64,000 nt of DNA from Romanomermis culicivorax (taxonomy: Eukaryota; Nematoda; Enoplea; Mermithida; Mermithidae). The DNA lies in assembly GCA_963922205.1 (NCBI GenBank), contig CAWUHX010000020.1, positions 434,001-498,000 on the forward strand. The letters run 5' to 3'. This document shows, one piece after another, positions 1,450-62,592 of the stretch. The notes below the pieces were generated by a model that was not told the DNA's origin, made no database searches, and worked only from the letters and a program-made list of their open reading frames with translations. Both the position numbers and the translations under genes were made by a program. Position 1 is the first letter of the stretch. Each line of letters begins with the position of its first letter.

Positions 1450-3515
1450 AAGATTGACACGATTTCTGAGAGATTCTACCTTCTGCTCCATTGACCTATG
1501 ATAAGTCGAAAATTGATAATATCTGAAAAAGAGATATTTTGAGTAGTTTTACATGCTGAGTATCGTGACAGCATTCATTCTGCGCAAAAATCAAAATTCA
1601 CATAGCTACAGTACTCCAAAGTTTGGAATTTTTACATTTTTTGGCATTTTTCAGTCTGTACACGTGTTTCGAATTATCACAGCTCCGAAAAGACTCTGAA
1701 GCCACATATTGAATGCATGCAGAACACCATGCTCTATATACCGGTATGAAGAACACTTTCTAATCTCTTGCTCTACACTTTTTATTCCATTTTAAAGTGT
1801 CAAAACCGATGTCAAAATCAACCGAAAAAGTCTTTTGGGGCCTATTTTTGGCACCTTCCTATAGGACGCCGCAGAATTTTTTTCTGATTTCTGTAACCAC
1901 TAATGTCTGACATATTGTGTAAAAATTTCAATCAAATTAATGTACCGTTTTGGGAGCTGTAGGTGTCTGCACATTCTGAAAGCTGATACAAAAATGCTGA
2001 TTAATTTCACTAAATATGCCATCAACGAGATGCAGGAAAAATTAAAAACGTTCAGATTAGACGAGTAAAAATAAAAGATGTGAGTCGAATCACTCCAAAA
2101 ATTTTATGGATCAATTTACAATAGTTGTGCAACAGGATGCCTCAGAAGAGATGCATCAAAAATTTCTCTTTTCAGTAATTTGACCGGAAAAAAATTGAAG
2201 CTGAGAGTTTAATATTACAAAATAAATGTCGGCTGTCAGACTATGACCTATGTTATAAGCTGTGCGAAAGTGCTCTATAGTTGAGGGCATCCCGTTTCAC
2301 ACCAGGTGATGTTGGCCGAAAGCAAATAGAGCAAAGGATTGTGGATTGCAGTGCCCTTCCAACAAAGCTAAGAGAATCCGAATAACCCTTGCCGTTTTTC
2401 TGAAAATGGATTTGAAACAATAGCTCAATTTCTGAAATTTAGTGAAAGTTTTCGAATTTTTCGATTTTTCATTTGGAGCAATTCGTTTACAAACCATCAA
2501 ACCTAGATCAATGAAAATTTGCCAGGACTTCAAGTCACATTTTTTCTCATAATATGTCGGGCTAGGAGGCATCCTGTGTTCCCAGAACTTCATTGATGGG
2601 GCATTTATCCAGATTTACAAATGCATTTGAATAGCAGTGCAGTGTATGCAAATGTCTACAGCTGCCAAAACGGCACATGATGATGAGATCTTACTTTCGC
2701 AGCTACTATAAGAATGTATTAACTAAAGAATAAAGAGATAAAATTCTGCAGAATCGTAGGTGAAGCTGCTAGGGAGTGCCTCTAAGCAGGAGTTTTCTTT
2801 ATTTTTACTTCTAATTTTTGACTGTTCAAACTTTCTTGCAGAGTGTAAAATATTTGCTTGTGAAACAATTAATACATCAAACTATAATCTGTTAGTTATT
2901 TGATAATTCTACAGTATACGTAATGAATATATCACAAGAGGTAGACAAGGGCCACCTGGCACATAGAATGATTTCTATGAAATTTTCGTAAGTATGCCTT
3001 CTTCAGGGCAGTGCAGCTCCCAAAACGGTACAAAAATTTTGATGAAAATATAACCAATGCAGTGAAAATGGATGAGCTACAATATAAGAAAACAAAATTC
3101 AGCGGCTTCTGATTAAAAGGTGCTTGGGAGTGACCATGAACAAAATTTTTTCAATTTTGACAGCTCACTTTTGACACTTTAAACTTTATGAAAAAGTGTA
3201 ATATGCAATTATTTGCTGTAAATATTACATCAAAATAGAGCTTATTCTGTACTCTGTAAAATGAGTGTTCATTCATCAAGTAAGATCGATCCGATCTTGA
3301 GATATCGCTTAGCTAGCAAGACCTCTGAAAAATGCCAAAAAATCATCAATTTTCAAACTTTGGCGTACTGTAGCGACGCGAATTTTGGTTTAAAAGCAAA
3401 ACGAATGGTTCCATGGAACTCAGCGCACGAAACTACCCAAAGTATCTGATTTTAAGGTATGATTAATTTTCAACTTATCATAGGGAAAGTAGAACCTCTC
3501 AGAAATCGTGTCTTA
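1450..3515. mobile_element. ~2-kb non-autonomous element with diverged terminal inverted repeats
   Basis: The left end (around 1453-1510, GACACGATTTCTGAGAG then CCTATGATAAGTCGAAAATT) reappears inverted at the right end (around 3460-3512, TTTTCAACTTATCATAGG then CTCTCAGAAATCGTGTC). No transposase is visible inside. A second, shorter copy in the same orientation lies at about 48073-49150, with recognisable matches along its length (for example the block around 1560-1650 against 48170-48260). Superfamily and exact borders are unknown. Confidence 0.6.
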
Positions 3516-5284: not shown

Positions 5285-8200
5285 AGTGATTATTGAAATG
5301 TGCATTATTGTTGCTGATGTTTTGGATAACAAAAGCTGTGCTTTTTCTTTCACTGCAACTCCTCTATGCCCTATCCATTTTTAAGCGATCGATGCAGCGA
5401 TTCCATGAGACTAAGTTCAATGTGGAAAAACAATACTTCGTACATTTTCCAATGATCGATGCAACGATCCCATAAAGATAGGTTCAAAACGAAAAGAAAC
5501 TCGTGGCTTACTACTGTAATCAATGAAAAAAAATCCGTCAGTGAGCGACAAACAGAACAGCTGAAAACTTTTTTCAATAAACCGATAAGCTGGTCAAATT
5601 TTGTCAAGTAGCACTCAGGTATCGACGCAGTTCTGTCTGAATAAGCATGATGTTTTTTACATGATTTTTGCCTTCCCATTCTCGCAAAGAAATTTGGCGT
5701 TTTCCTTTAACATATTAACATAATTACTTAAACATATATATTTAACACCTTTAACATAATTTAACATACACTAAGTAAAAATGTCTCATCATTGCACCTA
5801 CTTTTTTGGATTTTGCGACTTCTATCATTTCGAACCTTACCTTTAAGTAGTTCGACCCAGTTGGGTGCATGATAAAAGCCTTTTTTGGCGGAAGGGGGTG
5901 AGCAAGTGTTCAAAAAATGCGTTTTTTCGACCAAAATTAGGCAAGACACACCCGTTATGAATTAAGTTTTGTTTCAAAACTGATGTTATGCATTATTTCG
6001 ACGCGAAGCGTCGAAAATTTTTTGCTTTTTGACCGATTTTTGCTCCAAAAAGTCATTTTCGACCAAAAAATAGGTACTTCTCGTCGATTTTAGGCTGGCT
6101 GACAGGGGGCAGCTGTCGACAAATAAAAGTTGGGAGACGGAGTCGTGAACTGCCTGATTAAAAATTTTGGAGGGACCTACCCCCAATCACCCCATCTACA
6201 TATATGTTTTAAATTAAATGGACTGTAGTATTAGGCATATGCTGTAATCAATGAAAGATTTTTTCGTCATTGAGCAGCAAACAGAATAGCCGAAAATGTC
6301 TTTCAATAACATGGTTAGGTGGTCAAAATTTATCGTGTAGTATTCAGGTATCGACGACGCAGTTCTTTCCAAATCGACAGTGGATAAGCTCGATGTTTTT
6401 TCAATAACTTTGGCCTTTTCTCCATTCTCATGAAGAAATTTGGCGGTTTTCTACAGTATGAAGTTTTCCACCAAGTGAAAATTGTGTATTAAATTAAGAC
6501 TACTTCTTTTGGTTTTCGCTTATTTATCATTTTAAATTAATGAGCTGTAACAATTCGCTTCTCGCTTCCAATGCAGCACCGAATTCTGTGATCGTGTTCA
6601 CATGACGCATTTTGCATACTTCGATTTTTCAAACGGTATTATAATGTTTGTGTAAATGAAGCTGTCTCCGAGTACACAGGAAAATTTGGGAGTCGAATAC
6701 CGAGACGTGAATTTTAATACATTCTAGAAAGCAAAAATGCCAAAATTTTCCGTCGCTTGATGTTGAATTATTAAAAATGATCTGATCTCTTCCGCTTCAA
6801 ATCACTCTACTTTAATCCTGTGATCAGCTCTTTAGACTATTCTGAGTTAGTTTTAACTATTGAATTTTACTTTCAAGTCATGAAAGGGACATCCTGTTGA
6901 AAAACATGCTGCTTTGTATTGTTTGTGAAAGAAAAACCGCAATCTTACAATGACAACGTTTTCACACTCGAAACGTCGACAAATAATTTCACACTTAAAA
7001 TGTATTTTATTTTCTACAGACTTCAACAAGGACAGTTTCAATGTTGAAATAAGATAATTTTGATTTTTGAAAAGGATTGCATTTCAAATGCAGTTAAGCT
7101 ATTTATTGAATTTATGATCAGATTTCTATATAGCCCATTTACTTTGAAACGATTGACACAGCGACAGCCAAAAACGTATAGTCTGTTTTTTATAAAATGC
7201 TTCCAAATGGAAAAGTGACACAAATCAGTATCGTCATCAAAATCACTTACATAGAGCTCTTACTGTAAAATTTTTCACTCGAAAAATTGTTAATGGTTAG
7301 TTCAGTATGCTCGCAAATTTCCATTGCTCTATTATATACGGTATATCAGAGAATCGTAAAAATCTGAAATACTAATTGCTTTCCACATTCATAATTTGGA
7401 GGCATTTCAAGAAAAACAGACTATAGGTTTCAGTTGGCACGCAATTTTCAAGTAGTGAAAAACTTCATACTGTACGGCAACACTGAATTTTGTTACCGAC
7501 AAACTAACAGGCCGAAATCACAGAATCATTATGCTTCCACTTTTGACTTTGATAAAATTGTCGACTCTAGAAATGGACAACCAAAAATCTTTTGAGAAGA
7601 GTCTAGAAGGGAAAATTCAAGGGAGGTGTAAAAATCCGCTTCAAAAAGATCAACGTTGACCTAGCTTTTAGTCAATTTTTTATCAGTTTTTCTATTTTTT
7701 CAATTTTTAAAAGTCGGAGTTTCAGATAGGAGGTTTTACCAACCCATATCCTCCCCTATGTGTATCAATGGTCGACACGTGAGTGCTTCTGGATAAGTCT
7801 TGGCTATTAACAGGATTACTGATGGGAATATGCAGTTGTTCTGTTTGCTGCTCATGGACGATGGACCTTTTTCTTTGACAGTAAAGATCGCGTCATCTAT
7901 CATTTCAGGATGAATAGACTGTAGACTCTCCTTTTTAGTGCTTATTCATTGACCTTCTTTTTTCAAATGAGTTCTCGAAGGTATGAGGTAAAATCCTTAA
8001 TTTAATTAACTTGGGGATCGATGACATGTTGCAACTTTGTCCACAAAAACAGTTACCCTATACATTCACAAGTCCTAGAACTATTTGTTGGACGTTGGGT
8101 ATTTCGATTATGAGGAACTCAAAGATGCAGGACAAGAATTATTGGTTTTTTATTTGTTTTTTTGCAAATTTCAAACAGTTGAGGTGGTATATGACCCTTT

Positions 8201-8409: not shown

Positions 8410-11400
8410 TCATCTGATAAAACTTGTACGCTTTTTGATCAGTGAGTGTCCATCCACAATGGCCGGCGGCGGTTTGCCAATCGCTGAATAATCGATGGCG
8501 TAGTAGACAAAATCTTTAGACGCGACGGTTTGCGTTTGGGCGTCTTGCATTTTGGGTGCCATCGTTTGGATCATACGGCTGATGTTCCGCCGCCGATCCA
8601 GTGCCAACTTTTTCAATTGGCGTTGCTTTTTGTGCGATAGCAAGGGGAGCAATATTTTGGCGCCCACGCTGGTGCTCGTCGGGCCGCCGCCGCCCTTCAG
8701 CACGCGCCGCACGTAACTGGAAGCCGATTCGGATGAATGGGACGTTGTTTCGCTTGACTGTTTGCCGCCTGTAAGAAAAAATCGTTCCAAAGTTTTAGCC
8801 TTATGCTTCTTTTCGAAAATTTTTTTATTTCATTTTTGGCAAGGCGACTTTTAGATGTTTATCTCATGTGACACGCGATTTGGCGTCAGCAAGATAATGT
8901 GAATACTAAACTTTTTCAGAAGTTGATTGTACGTTCATGCATGGAAATCTCTAAAGCCCATTTCAGTTTAAGGTCCTTAAGGTAAGTTTATGTCCGTAAT
9001 TTATCATGTCACAATGTCGTATAGTCATAGTCTGCTGCGTCGTAAAGCATAAATTTTCGAATTATCACACTGTCGAATAAATGATCAGTATCATACCCAA
9101 GGTCATCAGTGATGCTCTTTAGGTATTCAGAAAAGACGGCTTAATTAAGTCAAATCGCTTTTCTAGAAACAAAAACATTTTCAGCAGGTGAGACTGAATT
9201 GAATAATGAACTGAAAATTCATCTCCCATAATAATAGTAGCAGTGAAGTCAAGATTACGGTAGCTTGGTCAATTTTCATCACATTTTACTGTTGTAAAAT
9301 GATTTTCTGACCAAGTCAAATTCTGCGGAAAAATGTAAAGTTATCATTTCCTTGCTCCTATCTTATATAACATTGATTTCCGAAATTTCAGATTTTTAAA
9401 TTCAAGTTTCTGTCATACAAGCGTCCAGATACACGAATTCGTGTGAGAATACATCACACTGCGATTTCCTGAATGTATGAAAATCAAAGAATATCAAATT
9501 GTCTGCGAACAACAATATTATTTCCGTCCCAAACCAAAATATCCATTTTTTGTAAGTATCTCTATTAAGAGTGAACATTATGAATCATAACGTATTTGAA
9601 GCACCATATGATTGACAGGTTTCTACAGCAACCTTTGCCCATTCCATATATCGAGCAAACTCATTTGGCTTCCTTGCAAAAAAATGATGGCAGAAATTGG
9701 ACGACCCAAGAAATTTCGATCATGATGTGGTAATGATAAGCATCATTTGAACTCCCATTTTCCCCCAAAATTCCATAATTTAATTTTTCGTTCATATTAC
9801 GTGCCATACAACGTCACTAACTTTGAGCTTTTGTTATTGATTCAGATGTGCTTTTCCCTTATTATATTTCCATATTGTGATTACGATATACAATACAGCA
9901 TGAAATCGATGTTGTGAACAGAAAAATATTTTCATTGTGAAACCGCGTTCGTTTCTGATAATCAGGGTTGCAGGGGAAAGAAAAACTGATTCCTGACATC
10001 AGAACAATGAGCGCTGCATAGCAAGAAATATCGAGATAATTGGAATTAAAACTAAATAATCTGGATAATTATTAATTAATAATTGATAATTATTAATAAA
10101 TAATTAAAACTAAATAATCTTTTTAGACCTTTCGCTCTGAATTCGCCAAGCACTTATTGAAAAAACTTTGGCGAAATTATAGATTTGGGGACCTCAGTCC
10201 GATTCCAGTTTCGAATCATGATATTTTCAGATCTTATGGAAATGATCTTACTGTCATTCTTCTCTAGAATCATAGCCGCCACATCATCGAATAACAGTTC
10301 CAATTGATTTTGAGTCAAATCGATGCACATGGTGAATAAGGAAAGGCCCACCAAAAGGAAAATGAAATTCGGAACTATAAGTTGATGTCGCAATGGCGAT
10401 ATATCGCCGAAACCAACAGTCAAGAAAGAAATCATAGTGAAATAGAAAGCGTCGAATAGAGTGATATCCCGCTCATTCTCGTAAGCTCGGGGTAGAATGT
10501 TAGAAAAATACAATGTGCTTAACACTATCCATAATATGCTAATTAGACAACCGATCCAAAGAGGTAAGTAATGCCTATTTTTCAGCATTTTGTTTTGGCG
10601 CATGGTGTAGGGTGGTTTGTGGCTTCTTGTGTACAAACGAACCCATAAACTGTGGAACAACAAGCCGAAAAAACGACCCAGGGAGGCCATAGAAGCCAGG
10701 AGAATGGGTGCTCCGATCAATGTAAAAATTATAATAAGGATTTGTCCAGATACTGTACGGGGGTATACGTCGCCGTAACCTGCAAAAATAGAAAAATAAA
10801 ATTACGGCAGTGGATGAAAAACAAAGAACAATGAAAATACAAATGTATATGATAAAAAATGTAACGGGAGAGGAGAGGAGAGGAGAGGAGAGGAGAGGAG
10901 AGGAGAGGAGAGGAGAGGAGAGGAGAGGAGAGGAGAGGAGAGGAGAGGAGAGGAGAGGAGAGGAGAGGAGAGGAGAGGAGAGGAGAGGAGAGGAGAGGAG
11001 AGGAGAGGAGAGGAGAGGAGAGGAGAGGAGAGGAGAGGAGAGGAGAGGAGAGGAGAGGAGAGGAGAGGAGAGGAGAGGAGAGGAGAGGAGAGGAGGAGAG
11101 GAGAGGAGAGGAGAGGAGAGGAGAGGAGAGGAGAGGAGAGGAGAGGAGAGGAGAGGAGAGGAGAGGAGAGGAGAGGAGAGGAGAGGAGAGGAGAGGAGAG
11201 GAGAGGAGAGGAGAGGAGAGGAGAGGAGAGGAGAGGAGAGGAGAGGAGAGGAGAGGAGAGGAGAGGAGAGGAGAGGAGAGGAGAGGAGAGGAGAGGAGAG
11301 GAGAGGAGAGGAGAGGAGAGGAGAGGAGAGGAGAGGAGAGGAGAGGAGAGGAGAGGAGAGGAGAGGAGAGGAGAGGAGAGGAGAGGAGAGGAGAGGAGAG

Positions 11401-12324
11401 GAGAGGAGAGGAGAGGAGAGGAGAGGAGAGGAGAGGAGAGGAGAGGAGAGGAGAGGAGAGGAGAGGAGAGGAGAGGAGAGGAGAGGAGAGGAGAGGAGAG
11501 GAGAGGAGAGGAGAGGAGAGGAGAGGAGAGGAGAGGAGAGGAGAGGAGAGGAGAGGAGAGGAGAGGAGAGGAGAGGAGAGGAGAGGAGAGGAGAGGAGAG
11601 GAGAGGAGAGGAGAGGAGAGGAGAGGAGAGGAGAGGAGAGGAGAGGAGAGGAGAGGAGAGGAGAGGAGAGGAGAGGAGAGGAGAGGAGAGGAGAGGAGAG
11701 GAGAGGAGAGGAGAGGAGAGGATAATGGCAATAAAAAGAGGAGAGGAAAACAGGTAAGAAAGAAGACAGGAAAGGAGACATGATGGAAATAAAATCACTA
11801 AAATTGAAAAACTGACCAATGGTCGTCACAGATGTCGCAACGAGGTGGAAAGCATCCCAATAAGTGAGTTTTGGAGCATCGAATCTAGTGTCATTAGATA
11901 GTATATCATTGATGAATCGAGCAGTTCTTTTGGGAACGTAACTGCTGTTTCCAAATACATTCACTTCGGGACGACTTTTCAGGGCAAAAATGGTAGCCCC
12001 AACGCAAACTTCCGAACAAAGTACTATTTGCCGTTCGTCTTTTTCAATAGCATAAAAAATCCAACCGGTCAAAGTTATATAAATGACCAATATGAAAGTT
12101 GTCATAGAATATTTGTAAATTTTTTTGGACAATTTTCCCAGGATTCCTCCTCTTCTGGCATTTTTAGACCATTTTTTCATCAATAATCTATAAAACCGTA
12201 TCAACTTGTGGAGGAGATTTGCGGATTTCGACCTTTTGGTGATATTCGGAACGGACTTATTTGGCGAATTGGTTGGAGCGACTTTGCCCGTACTGGATTG
12301 ACCACTAACTGTCTTGATGTTCAT
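8410..12324 (-). CDS. two-pore-domain (TWK/K2P) potassium channel, complete 3-exon gene
   Basis: Encodes a K2P leak channel of 464 residues setting membrane K+ conductance. Exons on -: 12324-11817, 10779-10252, 8768-8410; phases 1 and 1 agree at both junctions. M1 is at about residues 74-94 (TTFILVIYITLTGWIFY). An extracellular cap with NSS and NDT glycosylation sequons follows, then pore 1 with filter TTIGYGD (167-173, the Gly170 codon split by intron 1), M2 at 181-208, M3 at 241-264, pore 2 TVGFGD (290-295), M4 at 303-328 and a basic Ser-rich tail. Intron 1 (10780-11816) is mostly a (CCTCT)n array. Donor 2 is ACA|GTAAGA. If it is not used, exon 2 reads on to a stop at 10154, giving a 377-residue form without the tail. 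The acceptor TTAC AG|GC at 8769 fits the tail exon. The fold is certain; the subfamily number is not assigned. Confidence 0.92.
10867..11722. repeat. 856-bp (AGGAG)n / (CCTCT)n pentanucleotide microsatellite
   Basis: About 171 tandem copies of AGGAG on + are interrupted only once, near 11091-11096, where one unit lacks two bases. The array lies in intron 1 of the K2P gene and ends about 87 bases before the exon 2 acceptor, so the transcript carries (CCUCU)n. Because 5 and 3 share no factor, all six frames are open through the array (SPLLS or GEERR repeats); these are not genes. Such purity suggests recent expansion, and the true length may differ in the animal because assemblers collapse such tracts. 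Confidence 0.97.
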
Positions 12325-15826: not shown

Positions 15827-18800
15827 TCATTTTCCGGAATAATAAGGCGCAGGTGGCCCGTACGACGGTCTCAATATAGCCGGTGCCAAAACTTGCGAAA
15901 CTCCACAATCGGATGGACAATATGTTCCTGGTAAACCTGGTTCTCCTGGTGGACCCCACGGGCCTTGCGGTCCTGGAAACAGTGACAACATACAGGACAA
16001 ACATTAGCTGTGGTTTAAAAATTTACCAGGCGGTCCAACGCGGCCTGGAGGTCCCTTTGGCCCCGGTTGACCAGGGACTCCTGTAGGGCCCGGAATATTT
16101 GACTGAAAAGTAGTAAAAATGAATAAATAGAAAATTCGATGGCCACGAAAAAACATTGAGATATCAAAAACTTACTCTCACAGTAATTTCTCGTAAGTTT
16201 CGCCACACCAAATGAACTTTTATCATGGACTACTGTGTGTTTATATACGATGCACAAAGGGTGCATTCCTACATTTTTGTCTGAAACCATAGACTTGGTG
16301 ATGCATATATAAGTCACGTGTCCAGAACACAATTTTTATGACACTACCGCAGTTGCAATGGGCGACGCAGGGCCGTGCGGTGGTTGATAGAGCAGCTACC
16401 ATACATGAGAAAATTTTATCGCTAACTTATGGTTCCATGGGCTAGATTACGCGTTTATGCTCGGCAATTAAGTGGAGATTAAGAATTTTTCCTACAGAAT
16501 TCAAGGCTAAGTGTGTGATTTAGACAAATTTTTGTGATCTGAACAAACTGCAGAAAAAGGTTGTACTGCCCAAATTCAGCTTACTTTAATTAATCTTTAA
16601 ATCATCCACAACGTAGAGGCAGGATTTGGAAGTATTTCCTCTAATGATTGTACTCAGAAGTTAGCAAAATCGTTTTAACCATACAAATCGAACCTTGATA
16701 TGCAATTTTGAACAAAGAAATTATGCAGCCGCCATGACCAATTAGATCTTTGCCCATGTATGGCAGGTACCTCCCAATATTCGAGAATTGTTACATGGGA
16801 AGCAAAAAACTAAATATTCACTTACCGGTTTACCAGGAATACCGGGTGGCCCTTTCGGTCCCATGGGACCCGGCTGACCTTTCGGGCCTTTGATACCGAA
16901 ACCACCGATACCCTACAAAAAATTATATGTATAGTGCGCCTGGAATCGATGGTCAATCTACAATTACCGGATCGCCAGGTGGTCCTTTTGGACCGTAGTT
17001 GCCTTTCGGGCCGCGTCTACCAGGGGGTCCCTGCGGTCCAGGAGGACCGGGACGCGGCGAAGCCACGCCTCCAGGTGCACCCGCCGTACCCTTGGGCCCT
17101 GGAGTGCCGCGTTCTCCCTGATATCCTCTCGGTCCTAGAAAAATAGTTTTGGATAGGAAATCATTGGCTGAAATATGTATCGAAAATCATTTGATAAACT
17201 TGAAAAATATGGTCGTGCCCACATGCAAACAGAATAATGTCTTTTACAGAACTGTAAACCTTCACAACGATCTGGTATGTAATGAAACTTTTGAAACAAC
17301 AATTTTCCGGTGTGAATTTTGGGTATATTTTGTAATCTACGGTGTTGTTATACATCTCTGGTACAAGCAAAAATCTTACAGGTTGCTGTAAAAATCGCAG
17401 TCCTCGTTTGCCACGAGCTTCACTCTTCAGGAGACCCATGACATAGATATTCTTATTCTCATTTCCCTATAATGATCCGCACCTGGTGGTCCGGCCAAAC
17501 AGATGATGCATGGCAAATCAGGATGAGCGCCGATTGATACGTCGCCTCCGTCTTGTCCGGGCGGCCCGGTTTTACCCGCGTCCCCTACAAAACATTAAAG
17601 AAAGTCATTCAGTAATAATAAGCACACATTTTAAAGACGTAACTCAGTGTATGTTTTCTGTCTATGATGACATGTATCTAGTTCATGATCTGAGAGACAC
17701 TGTTTCAAGCAATAAGGATTCTTATTGTCAGTGGCCTAACCAAGAATTCAGCTCGGAAGAGACGAGCCGCCATAAATTTTCACGGAATTCAAACTATACT
17801 TCACAGAAGTTTATGAAAACTACCATTGTTCCAAGTATATATCTTCGTCAAAAAATCCAGATGACCCTGGTGACCAAAATATTTCACTGCGGAGGAGCAG
17901 GTGTCCATTGTGTCCTCGCATAGCTACACCTATGGTTATGCTTTGAAAAATGCTGAATATCAATCGACAGATTTCACAGAGATCTTCTATCAGCACATAT
18001 GAACAGTGTTACGTAAATCTCTTCTTCCAAAAATTAGCGTGTCATTTCAGAATCCTTGAGTGATGAGTTTTTAAGCGAGGTGATTTACCTGGATAGCCAT
18101 CATCACCGGATATGCCCGGTCCACCGGGAATGCCAGCAGGGCATAGCAGAGATAGGCAACCTAAAAAGGCAAATTTTCAGACGAAATTTCTTTCTGAGTG
18201 ATAAAAAATTTACCTGTGCATCCAGCTACTCTGCTTTGATCGTAAAACGATCGTTTTACGACAGGTGCCTTCCTCTGCATTTCCATGATTCGGTTCCATA
18301 CAGCATCAGATGCTTCCTAAAAATTTCATCGGATGAATTCTGTCCGAAAATCGTGGATAAAGTGAACTGTGGAATATAATATGAACAATGCCAAGTTGTG
18401 TCAATTGATCTTGACGATATACGATATTCTCAGAGTTGGTGTAATGTCACATCCATCCGATTCTGAGATAGTGTATTCCGGCTAGCATGGAACTGACAAT
18501 CAGGCACAGCATTTGAAATTTTTATTTGAAAATGTTCTATAGTCCGTTTTTCTTTAAATACCTCTGAATAAGTGTATAATTTCACACATTTGCGATTTCC
18601 TGCTAAGCCGTGTGTCACATAGGGCTGAAAATAAAGTTGTGAACTAACATTAGAAAATTTTTTGAGTTAAAAATTGTATAGTAAAAATTTATGTTCGTCG
18701 TCAGAGCCAATGCTCGTCATTTTTCAAAGTGTTATCTTAGCCATTAAAAAAAAATTCTCCTCATAGAATGAATGCTACTGAATTCAGCGAAGAAACCGCA

Positions 18801-25949: not shown

Positions 25950-28048
25950 GCCTCAAAGGTTCAAACAAAATTAGTTTTTGCAGCATAATGCACTACTAAT
26001 TTTTTAGCCGTTTCAAATAAACCTGTAGCCTCATTGGGATTTTTGGGCTGCAAGGGTTTTCGACTATTGGGAATTTGATGGACGCGGTCACTTGACACGA
26101 AAAATTATCCCGGGTGTAAACACGCGTATTTCCGTGATTTTTCAGTGGAGGAAGTTTTCGACTGCGGGGAATTCAATAGACGTCCTCACTTTACACAAAT
26201 AAATTATCCACGGTGTAAACAAGGGTACTGCCGTAATTTTCTTGTGGCGGGGATTTTCGACGTCGAGGAATTCAATGAATGTGATCACTTTACACCAGAA
26301 ATTATCCCGTGTGTAAACAAACGTATTTTCGTGATTTCCCGGTGGACGGGGTTTTCGATCACGGAGAATTTGATTAATGCGATCATCTTACAAAAAAAAC
26401 TATCGCGGGTGTAAACAAGCGTATTTTCGTGATTTTTATGGAGGGGGTTTTCGACTACGGGGAATTCAATGGATGTGTCACTTTACACAAAAAAATTATT
26501 CCGGATTTAACCAAGCCTGTTTTCGTGAGTTTTTTTGTGGGAGGGGTTTTCGACCACTGGGAATTTAATGAAAGTGATCACTTTACACATCAACTCATAT
26601 TGAGTGTAAACAAATGTATTTCTGCGATTTTTGAGGGAAGATGTTTCTGACCATCGGAAATTCAATGGACGGAGTCAGTTTACACGAAAAAAGTCATTTG
26701 TGTAAACAAAGGTATTTCTGCGATTTTTTGGGTTGAAGGATTCGAAACCATGAGGAATTCAATAGATATGGTCACCTTTCAGTATCTTTACACCGTTTTT
26801 AAGTACTATGCGGTTTACACATCCTTTACTTTTGCTGGAAGTGAGAATTCATTGCTTGAAGTTTTTTTTATTGTTTTTTTGAAGTGCAGATGACCAAATT
26901 TAAGACTTCAATGTGCTTCTATGAAAGTTTTCGTGCATGATTGAGGCCCACTAAAAAGAGGTGAACTAGTTTATTAGAAAATGCCCCGATGGGGCAGAAA
27001 AAAGGAGAATATACTTGCTTCGACAGTTGCCATGGTAGAAAAAGAAGTGGACTAGATTTTTGAGAACTTGGGTCAAAGTTGGAAAAAATTCACTTTCTTT
27101 ATATTGGATTTTCATTATTTCTCAAAAAAATTGTCTATGTCTGTGAAAAAGTATATTCTGCAGCTGAGTGCATCAACACACTTTCCAACCAAGCATGTGC
27201 ATCTCCGAAATTTTTAGGAGAGTACAGGCGTGGACCTTGTTGTTTTAGCATTTTGTGAGACAAAAAATTCAAAAAAAGTTGACCAAAAAATTTTTTGTGT
27301 AACAAATTTTCCAGTTTCAAAACCCTTGTGGAAATTTGTACTCCCGTGTCTCCTCTCACACATGTTTGCTTCCAATGGTGTTAAACATTTCACTGAATTT
27401 GGTGTCAACAAAAGGAATCAAGCGACATTTTCGCATAATTTTCTTGTCTCTAAAGAAAATAAATATGAAAATTTCTGTGATTCCCAAACTCGAACTAAAA
27501 CCTCAGTTTTAGTTAATCCTGAAGTGAGTATGATTTGTGCATTGGAAGAAAATAATTTGGACATTGTGAATAGCTTAAACTCAGGATCATCAATTTAATC
27601 CAGATGTTGAGATTATCCTCATGTTGGGTTAGTGCAATGAACCTCAGGTTCCTTTATTGTTCTGAAAATGACTATAATATGCCTCCCTCACTCTTTTCAG
27701 TTAGTGTGAAAGGCAGGAGTTTTGAATTGTTCGGAAGTTAGAATGCTATCGGTTTACCATTTCTTTACACTTGAAGTCAGGTGCATATAATTTTCATATA
27801 GAAAAATTCTACTGTAGTTGATGCCAGTTGAAGGACAAAATGCACGATGCTGCAGAATATACTTTTTCACAGACATAGAGAATTTTTTTGAGAAAGAATG
27901 AAAATCCAATATAAAGAAAGTGAATTTTTTCCAACTTTGACCCAAGTTCTCAAAAATATAGTCCACTTCTTTTTCTACCATGGCAACTGTCGAAGCAAGT
28001 ATATTCTCCTTTTTTTCTGCCCCATCGGGGCATTTTCTAATAAACTAG
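25950..28048 (+). mobile_element. Helitron-like copy, + orientation, 5' part missing
   Basis: Ends on + with a TGCCCC-ATC-GGGGCA hairpin (28017-28031), 13 bases of spacer, then CTAG at 28045-28048, followed by T. Hairpin plus CTRR is the Helitron 3' signature. Nearly all of it matches, inverted, the complete element at 37784-41946; matching stops near 25950, so the 961-bp 5' part of that element is absent. A second, opposite 3' terminus sits at 26966 (CTAG plus the same hairpin on -). No Rep/helicase coding is seen. Confidence 0.7.
26040..26775 (+). repeat. minisatellite, ~97-bp unit, about 7.5 copies
   Basis: The landmark GAATTCAATG recurs at about 26071, 26170, 26271, 26366, 26462, 26561, 26657 and 26754. 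Each unit also holds TTTACAC and, about 17 bases on, GTGTAAAC, forming an imperfect hairpin. The inverted counterpart is at 40085-40870. Short open frames here are repeat-derived. Confidence 0.85.
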
Positions 28049-31360: not shown

Positions 31361-33003
31361 TCATTCTTCAGTGTTGTTGTAGGCCAATTTTCGAAGTTGA
31401 TCGATCAAGGTGTGGTTAAAGTGCTCCACCATTTCATTGCCTTGAGGATGGTAGGTAGTTGTTTGAATTTTCTTGACCTTCAAAAGATCTGAAACATTGC
31501 TTGACAATTGGGAGGTATACCCTGAACCAGGGTCACTCAGGAGTTGCGTTGGAGTACCATACCTGCACACAATTAATCTTACACAAGAATCAATGATGCT
31601 GGCTGCGGATGTGTCAGGTATCATAGCATCTTCGATGTATTTTGTAAAATAGTCTTGAAAGACTATGACGTAGGGCATTTTTTCGGATACCTTTGAGATG
31701 TTGACAATGTCTGTTGCCACAATATCAAAAGGACCTGTTGGGTGGTGGCTGTGAGTCCATCATTGTTCATTGGCAAATGTCACAGTATTTTATCCAATTC
31801 TGAATATCTTGCTCCATCTTAGGTCACCAAAAGTGATGTTTGACCAAGAGTGTGATTTTGTTTATCCCTTAGTGACCCAAGAGGTTGGCACCATAAAAAT
31901 GATGTAAGACAAGTTTATGCAATGATTGAAGAATGATGAGCTGGTCAGCTTCACCTTTGAACCCTTCCTTGTACATGACACCAAATAATGAATAAAAACC
32001 TTTCACCACTTTTTTAATTTTCTGGCGGGTCGTTTCCAAGGTGGGGTCATTCTTCTGGCCCTCAATGACTTGTTCTTGAGTGAATGGCCAACTAGCATTT
32101 TGATCTGACGAGTTGGCAGGGTGGACAAGGGCTGGCTGCTCTGATGGTTCTGCAACCTTTTTTTGCCTAGCAAGCTAGCCAAAAAGTTTCAACAGCACCA
32201 ATATTGGGTGGTTTAGAGTTTTGATCTTTTGTGCTTGTTGTGATGTTGGAAATGGGATTTGTTTGATCTTCATCTTTTCAGCTTAGAAAGTCTGCAAAAG
32301 CATTCTCCCTCCCGCGAACATTTTCAACTTCATAATTAAAAGAATTAATAAAAATAGACCATTTTTGCAATCGAAGGTTCTTTTGAACTAAAGAATTCTT
32401 AAACATACCCATAAGCAGCTTATGGTCTATGCGAACAATTACCTTCGAACCGAATAAGTAATGGCCATACATTTGAAAACTGTAAACTATTACTAAACAT
32501 TCTCTTTCAGTGGTCGAGTGTCCGGTTTCAGGTTTTGTCAATTTCAGGCTGGTGTAGACCATTGTCTATTTGTCTGAATCATTTTCTTGGTAAAGCACTG
32601 CTCCAATGGCTGTTGAGCTAGCATCTGTTTGGATCACGAATTTGGATTTTGAGTTGTAGACTGGGTAATGTAAAAATGGCACTGATGTAAAGGCTGCCTT
32701 AATAGACTTAAAAGATTCAAGTTGTTTTTCAGTTATTTTCCATTTGACATCTTTTCCCAAAAATTTGTACAAAGGATCAGTGAGATGAGCAAGATTTCTA
32801 ATAAACATTTTACACCTCTGTACCATGCCCAAAATTGTTGTAGGGCTTTCTTGTTTTGCGGAAAACGAATTCCACTACAGCTTTGATTTTCTTTAGGTCT
32901 GGGTGGATTCCTTCAGTATTCAATATGTGACCTAAAAAACTTACCTCTTTTGGCAAAAACTCACATTTTTCAGGTTTGAGACTCAAATTTGTATGTGACC
33001 TAA
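31361..33003 (-). pseudogene. pol remnant: RT thumb, RNase H and integrase core, frames broken
   Basis: Read on -, 33003-32810 carries the end of reverse transcriptase (LKPEKCEFLPKEVSFLGH). 32832-32278 follows, with the connection/RNase H region (FVIQTDASSTAIGAVLYQE, then STTERECLVIVYSFQ and HKLLMGMF). 31720-31361 is an integrase core (FQDYFTKYIEDA, then LLSDPGSGYTSQL and YHPQGNEMVEHFN). Frames change between blocks. The protease and the reverse transcriptase palm with its YxDD active site are absent: at about 33010-33060 the gag-side sequence runs straight into the RT thumb, pointing to an internal deletion. The copy cannot be autonomous. Confidence 0.85.
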
Positions 33004-37121: not shown

Positions 37122-38278
37122 CATGTGTCATTGCAGAATTTACACAAAATAAGCTACCACATAGGAATTTGTTGGATTCAGTGCGATGCACTAGCTTGCC
37201 CAAAAAACATTCATAAAATACAATAATAAGCGAAAATGCATGGATTACATTTTTGTTCTATTGTTTACCATGCTATAATCATTTAGATCGAAACCTACAG
37301 TGAGTCCTGACGAGGGAACACTTCCAAATGTAAATTCTGGAATGGCATATGCTATGATGCATTCAAATAGAGTTATGCTGCAAAAACCATTCACCCCATA
37401 GGTCTTCTTTATACAGAAATTTTCATAAATGTGCAAAGCAATAGGAAGTTAGACCATACTTGATCTCATTTGATAGAACCAACTAATATCAAATTATTAC
37501 CATATGGGACAAAATACTGACTTTACATTGCTACACAGTTATGAACCTTTCGAATTTCACCGAAATTCAGAACTGCATATCTCAGACACTACTAGAAGTG
37601 GATGGTTGGTCATATGAAAATTATAGCAGTCCTCATACATGGACAGTATAGGAGTTCTGCTTGTAGTCAGCCAGGACAGGGGATGGAACAGAAATTTTTT
37701 TCATTCTCGATAATGAAAAGGAAAGTCTTCCAACATCCAAGCAGCATATCCTTCAGCTTTTATTAGTCAAATATGTTAAATTACTAGTTTATTAAAAAAT
37801 GCCTCGATGGGGCAGAAAAAAGAAGAATTACTTGCTTCGATAATTGCCAAGCTAGAAAAAGAAGTGGATCAGATTTTTGAGAACTCTGGTTAAAGTTGGA
37901 GAAAATTCCATTTCGTTACATTGAATTTTCATTTTTCCTCAAAAAACTTTCCATTCCATGTTCTGCAGCATCATGCATTTTGTCCTTCCCTGGCATCAAC
38001 TACAGCAAAATTTTTTTATTCAAATCTAAAGAAATAGTAAACAAATAGCATTCTAACTCCGGACTGATTCAAAATTCCTGCCTCTCAAACTAGCTGAAAA
38101 ATAGTGAGGGAGACATATTCTAGTCATTTTCAGAACTATAAAGAAATCTGGGATCGGATGCACTAACCCAACATTAGGATAATCACAACATCAAGATTAA
38201 ATTGATGATCCTGAGTTTGAGCTTATCGCAATGTCCAAATTATTCTCTTCCAGTGCACAAACAATACTCACTTCAGGA

Positions 38279-38708
38279 CATACATGTAATGGAGCCCTGA
38301 GGTCTGGGGAGAGGTCAGACGACTTTTTGGGCCAGGGTCAGTAACTACCAAAATTTGGGGGGGGGGTCACTCAAGGAAGAAAATCGATATTTTTCATGAA
38401 AAAAGTCCAGAAAATAGTTCAAAAATTAGTAATTTTTTTCTAAAAATACCCAAAAAATGTATTCATGGTGCGAAGTGCCCTGAAAATTCACATTTTTGAC
38501 CATTTTCTGTTCAAAAATTGACATTTTTCATCAAAAAATTGACATTTTTTAGTATTTTTCCGATTAAAGTATGGGGGTTTCTAGGACTACTATATGGCTA
38601 GCCATAGGATTGGAAAATCCTGGGGGGGCAGTCACCCAATGGCTAGCCATATGATCCACAATTTCTGGGGTGGGGTTCCCATAGCACTTCCCCCCAATTA
38701 TGTGTATG
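38279..38708. mobile_element. hAT-like MITE (CATACATG family) inside the Helitron-like element
   Basis: Begins CATACATGTAATGGAGCC and ends CCCCAATTATGTGTATG; flanked by CTTCAGGA on both sides (38271-38278, 38709-38716). The homologous place in the left Helitron-like copy (around 27510-27530) has one CTTCAGGA on - and no insertion, giving a direct empty site. Its interior resembles 49690-50010. Confidence 0.9.
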
Positions 38709-40084
38709 CTTCAGGATTAAATAATACTGAGGTTTAAGTTCGAGTTTGGGAATTGCAGACATTTTTATATGTATTTGCTTTACAGGTAAGAAAATTATGC
38801 CAAAATGTTAGTGAAACCCCACAGCTCGAGCTGGGGATAATCTGGACATTGAGCTCATTATAATTGTGATGACATTCAAATTATACCGAACTTGAGATCA
38901 AATCGAGTCACTTTTTTGTTCCAAATTATTTTGAGCTGAAGCTCAGACCCCTTAGTGCAACTGGACCTTGGTTACAGTCATTGGTCATCAATCTGCAAAT
39001 GGGAGAACATGGTAAAGCATACAAAAATTCTCCTGATTCAGCTGTGCCTATATTACAGGGAGTGCTAAATTCAGTACCCAGTTCTCTAGGACTCTACTTG
39101 CACTCCAGCTGCAACAGTTTAACTTTTTTGAAAACAGGATGACAGTGACAGGGATGGGTCAAATTGCTTCCTGTCTGCAATCCCACAAAAAAGCACTCTT
39201 CCTGAAAATTTCAGTTTAAAACCAAAGACTGAATGAGGCTATTTTGTTGACTAGTTAAATAGAAGAGAATAAATTTGTTTATAGCTTGTAATCAGTAGAA
39301 CTTACAGAGTGAATAATATACGATATGTTATATAAAATGAGTAAATTACATATGTTGCACAATCGATTTAGTTCTTGGAAGACTTTGTGTTGTAGCTTTT
39401 TTTCTAAAGAAGCTGAGTACGATTTTATGTGCCACTTTCCCACAGTTGATTCCTTTTGTTGACATCAAATTCGGTAAAAAAGTTCAACACAGTTGGAAGC
39501 ACACATAAGTGAGGGGGACATGAGTCTACAAACTATGCAAGGGTTTTAAACTGGAAAATATGTTATGGAAAAAAAATTTTTAGTCAAGTTTTTTAACTTT
39601 TGTGTCTCAAAAAACGCCAAAAAACTAAGGTCCACCCCTGTACCCACCTCGAAATTTCAGAGATGCACATGTTTGGTTGGAAAGTGTATTTATGCACTCA
39701 GCTGTAGAATATAATTTTTGAAAGACATGGAAAATTTCTTTGAGAAAGAATCTAAATCCAATATAAGGAAAGTGAATTTTCTCCAACTCTAACCACAAAA
39801 ATCTAGTCCACTTCTTTTTCTAGCTTGGCAACTATCCAAGCAAGCATATTCTTCTTTTTTCTGCCCTATCGGGGCATTTTTTAATAAACTAGTTCAGGTC
39901 TTTTTAGTAGGCCTCAACCATGCATTAAAATCTTCATAGAACCACATTGAAGTTTTAAATCTGGTCATCTTTCAATCAAAAAAACAGTAAAAAACTATCT
40001 TGAAGCTATGAATTCACACTTTTGGTAAAAGTAAAAGATGTGTAAACAGCATAGTATCTGAAAAATGTTGTGAACATAGAGAAA

Positions 40085-40870
40085 AGTGACCATATCTATT
40101 GAATTCTCCATAGTCATGAATCACTCAACCCAACAAATTGCAGAAATACCCTTGCTTACACACATGATCATTTTTTGTGTAAAGTGATGGCATCGATTGA
40201 ATTCCTCATGGTCAGAAACCTCTTCCCTCAAAAATCGCAGAAATGAATTTGTTTACACTCAATATACTTTTGTGTATAAAGTGATGACATTCATTGAATT
40301 CATGATGGTCAAAAACCCCTTCCAAAGAAATGTCACAGAAATATGCTTGTTTACCCTTCTGAAATAATTTTTTTGTGTCAAGTAAGACATCCATTTAATT
40401 CCCTGCAGTCAAAAACCCCTTCCACCAAAAAATCACGCAAATATGCTTGTTTACCTTGGGGATAATTTTTTGTGTAAAGTGATCACATTCATCAAATTCT
40501 CTGTATTCAAAAATCCCTTTCACAAAAATGTTAGGAAAATAGGCTTGGTTACGTCCAGGATAATTTTTTGTGCAAAGTGACCACAATCATTATTCCCCGT
40601 GATTGAAAACCCCTTTCACAATCATGAAAATATGCTTGTTTACGCCTGAGATAATTTTTTTTGTGTAAAGTGATGCATCTATTAAATTCCCCATAATCAA
40701 AAACTCCTTCTACCAAAAAATCATGAAAATATGTGTTAGTTTTTGTGTAAAGTGATTGCATTCATCAAACTGCACATAGTTGAAAACCTCCGATACAAAA
40801 AAGTGAAAATATGCTTATTTACACCTGGGTTAATTTTTTATGTGTAAAGTGACCAGATGTATTGAATCCC
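40085..40870 (-). repeat. minisatellite, ~97-bp unit, about 8 copies, inverted to the left array
   Basis: The CATTGAATTC-type landmark recurs at about 40095, 40192, 40290, 40388, 40488, 40587, 40678, 40760 and 40858. Units carry the same TTTACAC/GTGTAAAC hairpin as the array at 26040-26775. Confidence 0.85.
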
Positions 40871-42350
40871 CAATGGTCAAAAACCCTTACAGCCCAAAAA
40901 TCCCATTAAGACTACAGATTCAATTGAAATTGCAAAAAATTAGTAGTGCATTATACTGCAAAAATTATTTTTTGAAGCCCTAGGTATTACCTAAGAAAAT
41001 TCGGGAATTTGACATTTCCCAGGACTTCGGACCACCATATAATTGAATTGAGGCCATATTTAAAAAAAATGAAAAATCACATTTGAGATTGGCTGAAGTA
41101 TGAAGCTTGGATAGGCCTGTCAAAATGGGACTTAAGCTAGAAATAAAGAGAATGAAAGGACCTAATCAGCTACTCGCTAATTTACCTAATCAGGTGGAAA
41201 CCTTAGGTAGAAATAGTGTGCAACAGTTTAGTCAATCCCAATCTAAACAAATGATCAGCTGCTTTTGTTCTAAAGAACTGTGGGTGATCTGATAACTCCA
41301 TGAGCTCAGGTAACTTCCAATCAATGGGCAAAACTGAGAAGTCAAGCCCAGAATTGAGTTGTAAATGTAGACTTGCACGCAGGGTGGTTCTCCAGAAATC
41401 CAGGTCCTAACCTGCATTCCCTCCACTGCAAGAATATCAATAATTGTCCAGGCGAAGGACCTTGTATTTGGGTGAAATATCTCCATAAATATCAACCAAT
41501 AATAATGTAAAAATTGGCCAGTCAGGCTGCCGACTTTGTTCTTTAATAAAACAAACAAACATAGAATGACCAAGAACATAGACGAAGAGGCCTTTTATGG
41601 GCATCATCCATGCAAACCGGCATCTACACAAATTGTGTCGACTTTGGCTAATTTGCACAACCATGAGATAGACTGTGTCCATCCCCAACATGACACACTC
41701 ATTGTGAGGCATGGTGGGACTGAGGACCCTTAAAATGCATTTGTTGCATGTTTTTGGGGCCCCACCAAGCACTACTTGTAGATAGAGGCGAAATGACAAA
41801 AGGCATCACATAGTTTGCCCCTATGCCCAAAATGACGAAAAAAACTCGAAGGTTCTAGCTCGTACCATTTTGGATCTAGGGTGGGGGGGGACATAAAATT
41901 TGGGGGCCAAGTATATTATAGGTTGACACTATCGCACCACCTATGATTTGCTTAGGTAGCACTTTTTAAAGTTTTAATGTTACTTCTTTGAATGGATCAA
42001 AACCCCCTCCCCAAACCTTCCCCACGTGCATGTATGGCAGTCCTCAAGATGTTCTATGGAACTCTCGTTTTTGCCATTTGATGTGTATTGGTGGTTGCTG
42101 AGAGCGAGTATAGGCAAAGTTTACCAAGCTTATGCAAATCTCAGTGTAAAAAAGGTTCATGAACGGGTAGTGTAACATCACTCCATTTGCCGTTGGGAAA
42201 TCATTTGCAATTCAAGAATTTACACTTAGAAACGTTCCCTTGTGAAGCGTACCGGTCCATCGCGTACTCTACTGCTTGGCATTGATAAGACATTCCAGAG
42301 GAAATCAAATTACTTGCGAATCTTCTTATAACGTTATCGCACGGCGGTTC

Positions 42351-43838: not shown

Positions 43839-44227
43839 CATACATGTACAGCATAGTAATTCTGCGGGGGTCAGCTAGGACAGGGGGTGGAATACAAATT
43901 TTTTTTTGTTCCTGATAACGAAAAAAGATCTTCGATAGGTCTTGTAATATCCAAGCAGCATATTCTTTATTTTATATTAGTCAGATATGGGAAATTATTT
44001 GCCTATACTACACTTTTTAAAGTTTTAATGTTACTTTTTTGGACTTCAAGTATGCTTTATTTAGAAAAATTGTTCAACTACACCATCATTCCTATTTTTA
44101 TGATGACTTTCTCTTCTCACTTGCTCACTTTTCCTTTGTCATCTTCTGGATCACTGCTGGGGTGGTCAAATCTGCTGGGGGTCAATCAAAGTCTGCTGGG
44201 GGTCAAACCCCCCCACCTGCATGTATG
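43839..44227. mobile_element. hAT-like MITE (CATACATG family), 389 bp
   Basis: Begins CATACATGTACAGCATAG and ends CCCACCTGCATGTATG, flanked by ATTAGGAC on both sides (43831-43838, 44228-44235). It contains the uninterrupted GAAATTATTTGC used to rebuild the Helitron target. A GCTGGGGGTCAA word is duplicated near its end. Confidence 0.9.
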
Positions 44228-45190: not shown

Positions 45191-46580
45191 TAACGGGTGT
45201 CCACTAAAAATCTGCACAACTTTTAAAACAAATTTTAATTTACAAACAATAAATAAAGAACTACAATAAATACACCATTCGAAAGCCTGAGAAAAACTGA
45301 ACAAACAAAAATCACGAACCACTTTCAATCACACCATTGTAACGAATTAAATTAATCCTTTTTCGAGTACTAGCGCATAAACGTTGTACAACATTTTGGT
45401 CACATTTACTTATACAATATTTAATACATTTGATTAATTGATTTAAATTTTTAGCTTGCCATCCCTTGGCGAGGATTTTAAATAAGGATTTTAAAGGTTT
45501 TTAAGGATTTTAAAGGATTTTTGGATTTTAAATTTTTTTAAAAGGATTTTAAATAAGACCAAAAATCTTCAATAACTCGAATTTCTGGAACATTGGCTGG
45601 ATTAAAATATTTATCGACAAAAGTGATGTTTTCGGCCTTTAAATGTTCCACGACTATTTTGGCATGATGGGAACTAGCCTGATCCAGCCAAAACACGTAA
45701 TCACCATCTATGTAATTCTGTCGTATGTAAGGAATGAGTTGGCATTTAATGCACTCGTTTAAATATCTTTCAGCATTGATGGCATAGCCTGATTTACGAA
45801 TAAACGACTGGCTTATTCCCCTTGGTCTGATAGCCAACCAGACTAGTACCTTTTGTTTGAATTTGGCTTTTTTTGTATATTTCATGGATGCTGGGGTTGA
45901 AGAAATGTCGTTGGTATAAAATTCACTGTTTCCATTGATACTTGAGTGGGTACAGGTGAAATACGACTCGTCATCCAAAATAAATTGACGGGTGCCAAAT
46001 TTGCGAATCAGCCGTCCACACTTCGTTTTTGCCAATTTTATTTGAACGTTAGATCGAGATGGAATAACTAATTTCTTTCGGTATTTCAAATTTAGCTTAT
46101 TTTTGACAATTTTTTGAGCGTAAGACTTGCTGATTCCAAACCTGCGGGCGCATTGACGAATTGACGTCGAGTCTTTGCCATTAATCATAACGTTCAAGCG
46201 TTTAACTTTTGGTTTTGGCATTAATACAGCTTTTCGACCGGATCCAGAAATTCGAATCGCACCCTGGCCGTTTGAGAAGCATTGGAGAATATTATAAATT
46301 GTTTGCTTTGAAGATCCTTCTTCTTTAAAATGTTTGACGGTGAAAGATTTGGGCTTATCAGAATGAGTATTATAGAAGTTGTACACACGTAAATGAAGAC
46401 TATCTTCAGATGAACTCATGTTGAATGGGACAATTAAAAGATCAATTAATAAAACAAACACTAGCTTGTAGAGAATTTTTCGCGCTATCTATTCATATAA
46501 AAAACACTGTATGCAATTTACAACGAAAACAAAAAATTTACAGCGAAAAAGTTGTGCAGATTTTTAGTGGACACCCGTTA
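45191..46580 (-). mobile_element. Tc1/mariner-superfamily transposon, DD37E type, 1390 bp
   Basis: Perfect 34-bp terminal inverted repeats, starting TAACGGGTGTCCACTAAAAA at 45191 and its inverse ending at 46580, with TA on both sides (45189-45190, 46581-46582). One transposase gene is read on -. Perfect repeats suggest fairly recent activity. Confidence 0.96.
45538..46419 (-). CDS. Tc1/mariner-type transposase, C-terminus disrupted
   Basis: Cuts and pastes the element at TA sites in the nucleus. From the ATG at 46419 (MSSSEDSLHLRVYNF; an upstream in-frame ATG at 46461 is less likely) the frame has about 293 residues. An N-terminal helix-turn-helix pair (KHFKEEGSSKQTIYNIL, then SIRQCARRFGISKSYAQKIV) comes first. 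The catalytic domain follows: first Asp in ILDDESYF, second in VFWLDQASSHH, Glu in RVIEDFW. There are 95 residues between the Asps and 37 between Asp and Glu, the DD37E spacing. The frame stops at 45538, in a run of imperfect GGATTTTAAA-like repeats (45477-45550). Beyond it, at about 45300-45470, a shifted frame reads as the expected C-terminal tail (Lys/Arg-rich). Repeat slippage therefore seems to have broken the end of an otherwise intact gene. Confidence 0.9.
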   Translation of the reverse strand: MSSSEDSLHLRVYNFYNTHSDKPKSFTVKHFKEEGSSKQTIYNILQCFSNGQGAIRISGSGRKAVLMPKPKVKRLNVMINGKDSTSIRQCARRFGISKSYAQKIVKNKLNLKYRKKLVIPSRSNVQIKLAKTKCGRLIRKFGTRQFILDDESYFTCTHSSINGNSEFYTNDISSTPASMKYTKKAKFKQKVLVWLAIRPRGISQSFIRKSGYAINAERYLNECIKCQLIPYIRQNYIDGDYVFWLDQASSHHAKIVVEHLKAENITFVDKYFNPANVPEIRVIEDFWSYLKSF

Positions 46581-61790: not shown

Positions 61791-62288
61791 CATATTTTCA
61801 ACCCTCCTGAAAATCTAGTTCTGAAAACGTAATTAATAATACCTCTTGGATAAAATTATAGGAAAAACTTCACTAGGAAAATTTCTTAGTGCATGGCCAA
61901 AACTTGCCCATCATGGATTTTCAGAATGCAAGGTCAAACATTCATCCATAACTTGCTGATGTAACCGCACAACACAAATGATATCAAGAATTATAAATAA
62001 CTTGAAATCCGGCGCGAAGCGCCAAAAAATTTTTGGCATTTTTTAATGCGCATAAAAATGCATCTTTGGACAGGAAACTCTTTAACCCATACCTGTACTT
62101 GGGGGGCATACCCCCCAACTTGGCCAACCCTGTACCCAAAATCATTTACCCCCCCCCCCAGTTGGGAAAAAATTAAAAAAATTTGGCAAAAAGTGTATGT
62201 TTTTTGGCCTTTTTTTGGGAAAAATTTCGACTTTTTTCTACCCCACCCCCCAACTGGTCGGAGGTCTTACAGGTATGGAATGATAGCA

Positions 62289-62592
62289 TTCATGCACGTG
62301 GAGGAGTGTTTGGGAGTATTGACCCCCCAGCAGATCTGACCCCCCTGCAATGATTGAGAATATGACGAACGAAAAAATGATCAGGAGAGAAGAGAAAGTC
62401 ATCATGAATGAAAATGATAACGTAGTTAAACGATCTCTCCAAACGAAGCCTACCAGGTTCAAAGAAGTAGCATTAAAACTTTAAAAAATGCTGTCTAAGC
62501 AAATAATTTCACATATTTGACTAATATAGGTTGAAAAACATGCTGCTTGCACTGGCTGAGTACCCACAGAATTTCTATGTTGTGCATGTATT
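62289..62592 (-). mobile_element. hAT-like MITE (CATACATG family), inverted copy
   Basis: Inverse of the 43839-44227 element: CATTCATGCACGTGGAGG end at 62287-62305, then ACCCCCCAGCAG words, the uninterrupted AAATAATTTCACATATTTGA block, and a CTATGTTGTGCATGTAT end. Target duplication not recognisable. Confidence 0.65.

Follow-up and report, generated by a model that had tools for sequence, protein, structure and literature searches.

Architecture of the nested locus

We analysed a window of 64,000 nucleotides of the nematode Romanomermis culicivorax (contig CAWUHX010000020.1 of assembly GCA_963922205.1, positions 434,001 to 498,000 of the forward strand); positions given below are those of the window, and the genome searched comprises 359 Mb. 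The window contains a Helitron which lies inside a miniature inverted-repeat transposable element (MITE) and has itself been entered by another MITE. Within the Helitron its own 3' end is present a second time in inverted orientation, and sequence appears to pass between the two tails. The features of the locus, including the target-site duplications (TSDs) and a further copy of the Helitron family, are the following:

37626..37633, no strand: left TSD of the outer MITE, GCAGTCCT, 8 bp
37634..37783, plus strand: left half of the outer MITE with the CATACATG end, placed by alignment to sister MITEs
37784..41946, minus strand: Helitron (copy W37), non-autonomous, 4163 bp, with 5' TC at 41946 and 3' CTAG ending at 37784
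37784..37950, minus strand: terminal 3' arm (T arm), with an imperfect hairpin at 37800-37814 and CTAG at 37784-37787
37951..39731, minus strand: loop between the two inverted 3' arms, in normal orientation in the window copy
38271..38278, no strand: left TSD of the inner MITE, CTTCAGGA
38279..38708, plus strand: inner MITE inside the Helitron, of a family other than that of the outer MITE
38709..38716, no strand: right TSD of the inner MITE, CTTCAGGA
39732..39892, plus strand: copy of the 3' end, internal and inverted (I arm), with a hairpin at 39862-39876 (one mismatch) and CTAG at 39889-39892
40074..40901, minus strand: array of ~98-bp tandem repeats within the Helitron
41947..42036, plus strand: right half of the outer MITE, placed by sister-MITE alignment
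42037..42044, no strand: right TSD of the outer MITE, GCAGTCCT
25967..28048, plus strand: second copy of the family in the window (W26), with its CTAG end at 28048 and the I arm from 26966, the start being the onset of BLAST homology

A first-pass annotation of the window had proposed that a MITE with an 8-bp TSD is interrupted by a Helitron-like insert and that the empty site can be rebuilt; alignment to sister MITEs bears this out. The outer MITE opens with CATACATG at 37634 and closes with the reverse complement, whose last base is 42036; CATACATG has eight matches in the window versus 1.44 expected, a number reached in none of 100 shuffles. The 8-mer GCAGTCCT has three matches in the window versus 0.91 expected and is weak evidence by itself; the interruption is settled by the alignment, in which the two halves, joined in silico, match the MITEs at 43839-44227 and ~62287-62591 across the junction AAATTATTTGC. 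The insert is exactly 4163 bp long and its minus strand reads TC...CTAG, preceded by A and followed by T; the empty site rebuilt in the outer MITE shows no target duplication. Alignments of sister Helitrons that reach the ends of the window element start at W37 3042-3057 (border at 3055) and stop at 7214-7230 (border at 7217), within ~13 bases of the borders first read. Among these alignments we saw no copies extending beyond the borders, the finding which the annotation had named as speaking against it.

The inner MITE (38279-38708) has identical CTTCAGGA TSDs on both sides. Sister Helitrons lack it at this site, and several of them are continuous across the site with an 8-base overlap, which supports its having come last; the order MITE, Helitron, second MITE, as originally described, is supported by these sister copies, and the nesting of the Helitron in the MITE is ordinary and was correctly read. 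The related proposal of a hAT source active both before and after the Helitron stands in part: there are two insertions, one earlier and one later, but they are not of one family. The inner and outer MITE families share only the CATACATG end and the TSD length, and BLAST gives no match between the two MITEs at E 1e-3. The MITEs may belong to the hAT superfamily: its 8-bp TSD is found as identical flanks at 37626/42037, 38271/38709 and 43831/44228; P-type elements likewise make 8-bp TSDs. A further CATACATG-ended MITE-like element with an unrelated interior is located at 16400-16762, and the 8-mers beside it, GCAGCTAC and GCAGGTAC (16392/16763), differ at one base. Also, one sister Helitron (L025) contains a copy of the inner-MITE family ~100 bp from the site used in the window, in the opposite orientation.

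Because its ends are of the canonical form (A before TC, T after CTAG) and the sister copies respect its borders, the window element is a non-autonomous, non-coding Helitron of the canonical type. Our comparison is based on 22 elements, namely 20 fetched regions chosen for two exact opposite hairpins and the two window copies. The 5' end is recognised in 19 of them (not in L023, L027 and W26), whose length varies from 2372 to 4565 bp. Of these 19 copies, 18 are preceded by A and 17 are followed by T, the latter with a search pattern that included the flanking T and allowed five mismatches; with the empty site, these counts support a target between A and T that is not duplicated, as first suggested. 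TC is present at the 5' end of 18 copies (L022 is degenerate) and CTAG at the 3' end of 15 (CTGG in L021, mutated in L016, L017 and L022). The termini are not inverted repeats, no listed inverted pair joining the 5' and 3' terminus of the window copy. The TC end, the hairpin with CTRR, the A/T target without duplication and the non-inverted termini of Helitron1 elements are all present.

A second, inverted 3' end

The inverted tail at 39732-39892 is absent from the first-pass account. In a repeat search, the inverted arms of the window Helitron (37783-37950 and 39732-39893) match in three blocks which are 81-96% complementary; W26 contains both inverted arms and a short loop (26966-28048). In copies of the family, the last ~165 bp, with the hairpin and CTAG, are repeated in inverted orientation 1.0-2.5 kb inside the 3' end. 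In other copies than that of the window one arm meets unique flank, which marks the true 3' end, and the other meets the shared interior TTCACCTCTTTTTAGTGGGCC or a variant of it; the copies read therefore carry a second, inverted 3' end. In the window Helitron the interior after the I-arm CTAG begins with TTCA, as is common to other copies, and the inner arm of L010 and of L007 ends with CTA, followed by a different interior. One copy (L009) has two internal tails, both inverted (at 1312 and 2867), ahead of a single 3' end.

Pattern searches of the genome, in which two to three mismatches were allowed, give 3683 3' ends, 1873 5' ends and 1262 internal junctions, with none for each of the reversed-pattern controls. 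There are 1.97 times as many 3' as 5' ends, a rough figure since the patterns differ in strictness; this is as expected if the inverted-tail layout is usual. Among 100 exact 3' ends listed, the neighbouring pairs no more than 3 kb apart comprise 25 outward (-,+), no inward and one (+,+). The perfect hairpin of the first-pass annotation is that of the family form, with 1664 exact 15-base matches genome-wide (836 + 828), but the window's own copy has one mismatch.

Apparent exchange between the two tails

Based on the 22 elements, the mean difference between the two arms is 0.066 within an element versus 0.104 between elements, and none of 20,000 permutations gives a value as low. The arm tree was built from the 42 arms of 21 elements; L023, whose I arm cannot be aligned, was left out of it and kept in the permutation test. 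On this tree the T/I label needs 14 changes versus 14.2 for shuffled labels, and forcing the terminal arms into one clade lowers the log-likelihood by 132 and is rejected (approximately unbiased test, p = 2e-59; 21 elements). The arms share subfamily-specific and some copy-specific changes: 23 letters occur in both arms of one element and in no other arm, versus 0.5 on average and at most 6 when the pairing is shuffled (2000 permutations, 21 elements), and 127 are private to one arm only.

In six of the 22 elements (L015, L016, L018, L021, L027 and L028) the loop is inverted and the outer part is not. On a tree built from the outer sequence these six group as a single clade (support 100/99), so that one flip event suffices. 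A 550-base query over the flipped inner junction had 4128 candidates, of which 40 were scored; all 40 are full-length matches at 96-100% identity, and at least 40 copies therefore carry the flipped inner junction.

A less selected sample comprises 25 internal junctions, i.e. the first 20 in genome order (five already sampled were omitted) and five further down, two of which were chosen for an older variant. The places sampled are exact matches to the CACCTC junction, a choice that leaves out most of the flipped subfamily, whose junction reads CACTTC. An arm of at least ~70 bp still backs 22 of the 25 junctions, and the inner arm has its normal flank at 17, including L054, where the loop is short because a tail remnant lies close to the inner arm. 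In L047 a T-type flank of ~336 bp has been copied onto the inner arm (T to I), with a normal T side, and in L057 an I-type flank of ~375 bp is found on the terminal arm (I to T); in both, the copied flank runs ~160-200 bp past the shared arm. In L060 the loop is almost gone and the tails are joined as a ~220-bp near-palindrome, a long hairpin at the 3' end. Of the remaining junctions, L044 and L045, which are 2.4 kb apart, retain only ~35 bp of arm, L056 keeps ~70 bp, L055 is a remnant joined to an inverted 5' end and L050 has lost its inner flank. L047 and L050 were considered as flips and rejected, since both have normal T sides and the I arm of L047 bears a copied T-type flank. A similar stretch ending in TTTAATAATCATCATTAGG is present on the loop side of the inner arm in these two copies.

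Interpretation and comparison with known elements

We consider it probable, if modestly so, that the Helitron entered a MITE, was later hit by another MITE, and belongs to a family whose inverted tails exchange by foldback, with RepHel acting in trans. While the element is single-stranded or being copied, the 3' tail would pair with its inverted internal counterpart; a switch of synthesis from one arm to the other would then homogenise them, sometimes invert the loop and sometimes rebuild one end from the other. The mobilising enzyme would presumably be a RepHel supplied in trans. We infer foldback exchange between the tails, and synthesis is favoured over plain crossing over because copying continues beyond the arm. 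According to PMC4778049 and PMC5876387, Helraiser forms circular intermediates, which are taken as suggestive of replicative transposition, and its 3' hairpin has a terminator role; together these make a foldback stage plausible, not proven.

Ordinary host recombination between the inverted repeats of resident copies, either by crossing over or by gene conversion, would leave the identity of the Helitron unchanged and is a possible explanation, though one we hold with less conviction. Arms of ~165 bp which are 95-99% identical in many copies are plausible substrates for it, and the flip is reciprocal with its breakpoints somewhere within the arms; however, conversion confined to homology would not give the flank copied past the arm in L047 and L057, and the flipped inner junction occurs in its 40 or more copies at different places, so the flip is present in a mobile lineage. 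It is improbable that a second, related Helitron was inserted with its tail outward and then co-amplified, the likeness of the arms being due to recent common ancestry and constraint and hardly to exchange. In its favour, most copies have T after the inner CTAG, as a Helitron insertion would leave it, and the loop-side flanks of the arms are unlike each other. Such an insertion is possible as the origin of the inverted-tail structure. A whole nested Helitron was nevertheless rejected: the 5' terminus was not found in any of the 22 loops searched, which gave one weak, non-terminal 31-base match (to bases 193-223 of the 5' region), and the changes shared by both arms, the rejection of separate arm clades and the flip all need exchange after the structure arose. 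As for a terminal inverted repeat (TIR) transposon at 37784-39892 within an unrelated repeat and without any Helitron, the arms do resemble TIRs of ~165 bp. This is very improbable, since in 19 of 22 copies the same interior can be followed past the internal arm up to a recognisable 5' end and the flanks are A and T without duplication; the candidate was ruled out because just one arm borders unique flank.

Several observations weigh against foldback exchange. The flip maps to one event, so that reciprocal inversion is shown once only, and the matches to the flipped junction cover the inner junction, both ends being read in just six elements. Intact paired hairpins were the selection criterion for most of the 22 elements. 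For only 10 of the 22 terminal arms is the partner the nearest inner arm, and much of the arm sharing is therefore at the level of the subfamily or among close relatives. Also, a single diverged copy (L010) accounts for 18 of the 23 letters that both arms share privately, among which are gaps and one run of adjacent positions; the other five are found one each in L016, L018, L019, L021 and W37. Six of the 25 sampled junctions (L044, L045, L050, L054, L055 and L056) are shortened or rearranged, as ordinary decay could give, and L057 could be a flip followed by a deletion instead of copying. The 3' hairpin of the window Helitron, TGCCCCATCGAGGCA, is degraded, with its one mismatch and a DNA-fold z of 0.25. 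Finally, the data fit exchange in resident copies as well as exchange during transposition.

A stronger form of foldback exchange, in which the inverted tail is a working part, is rather unlikely: the displaced single strand would fold tail to tail, the 3' end would repeatedly be re-copied from the internal template and the loop could flip. If true, the working inverted tail would be a built-in repair copy of the terminator, with a flip-flop interior like that of hairpin-ended replicons.

Concerning a possible autonomous partner, the genome has 44 matches to Helitron_like_N (PF14214), and intact frames of 1997 and 1954 amino acids carry both Helitron_like_N and PIF1. The ends of the inverted-tail family were not found at the 12 of these 44 places examined, for three of which 10 kb of sequence was read. 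RepHel frames that are intact and belong to other Helitron-type families are located at L041 1068-7061 and L043 3313-9177; we take their N-terminal part to resemble a cysteine-protease-type domain, and there is no such Pfam match. L042 and L043 share ~7.7 kb ending ~30 bases beyond a different hairpin. An end at this hairpin with CTAG followed by T was rejected, since the homology runs ~30 bases past the CTAG and L043 does not have it; the homology ends in ...ATTTT, and these elements may be of the Helitron2 type. Other features of the window are a long simple repeat at 10802-11757, through which several frames are read and which adjoins a potassium-channel-like exon, a DDE_3 transposase-like fragment at 45538-46461 and a retroelement integrase-like fragment at 31361-31720.

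Canonical Helitrons such as Helibat and Helraiser are described (PMC4778049, PMC5876387) with a 5' TC, a 3' palindrome followed by CTAG and a target between A and T that is not duplicated, as found here; according to the same sources their ends hold no inverted repeats. Unlike these, the family has its whole 3' end repeated in inverted orientation inside the element, and its inverted, exchanging tail is an unusual Helitron variant. Among the titles and abstract openings listed by searches of the open-licence part of PubMed Central, none concerns a Helitron whose 3' end is repeated internally in inverted orientation, though a description may exist. Helitron2 elements or Helentrons, HINEs and DINE-1 likewise include non-coding forms, in which tandem repeats separate conserved blocks and inverted repeats and palindromes occur; their terminal or subterminal inverted repeats are ~11-16 bp long and DINE-1 prefers TT (PMC4067079, PMC5148889, PMC7492417), and PMC5148889 describes transposase genes of related elements in opposite orientation. 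The window element is not of the Helentron or HINE type, which has short subterminal inverted repeats and enters T-rich or TT sites: it inserts between A and T, it ends in CTAG, and its inverted repeat is ~165 bp long and holds the complete tail. Galileo-type foldback transposons have long inverted repeats that could recombine, a likeness to the window Helitron, and differ from it in moving by cut-and-paste with target duplications and not by a rolling circle. Galileo itself is classed as a foldback-type DNA transposon (PMC4168063).

Inverted-tail Helitrons may be called TIR transposons by annotation tools. For canonical Helitrons, how the 3' end is recognised, bypassed and renewed is not settled, and this family, with more than 1000 places matching the inverted spare tail, concerted tails, a loop flip carried by a subfamily and copies whose ends were rebuilt, offers a natural record of what can befall the displaced strand. 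It makes it testable whether foldback synthesis takes place during Helitron transposition.

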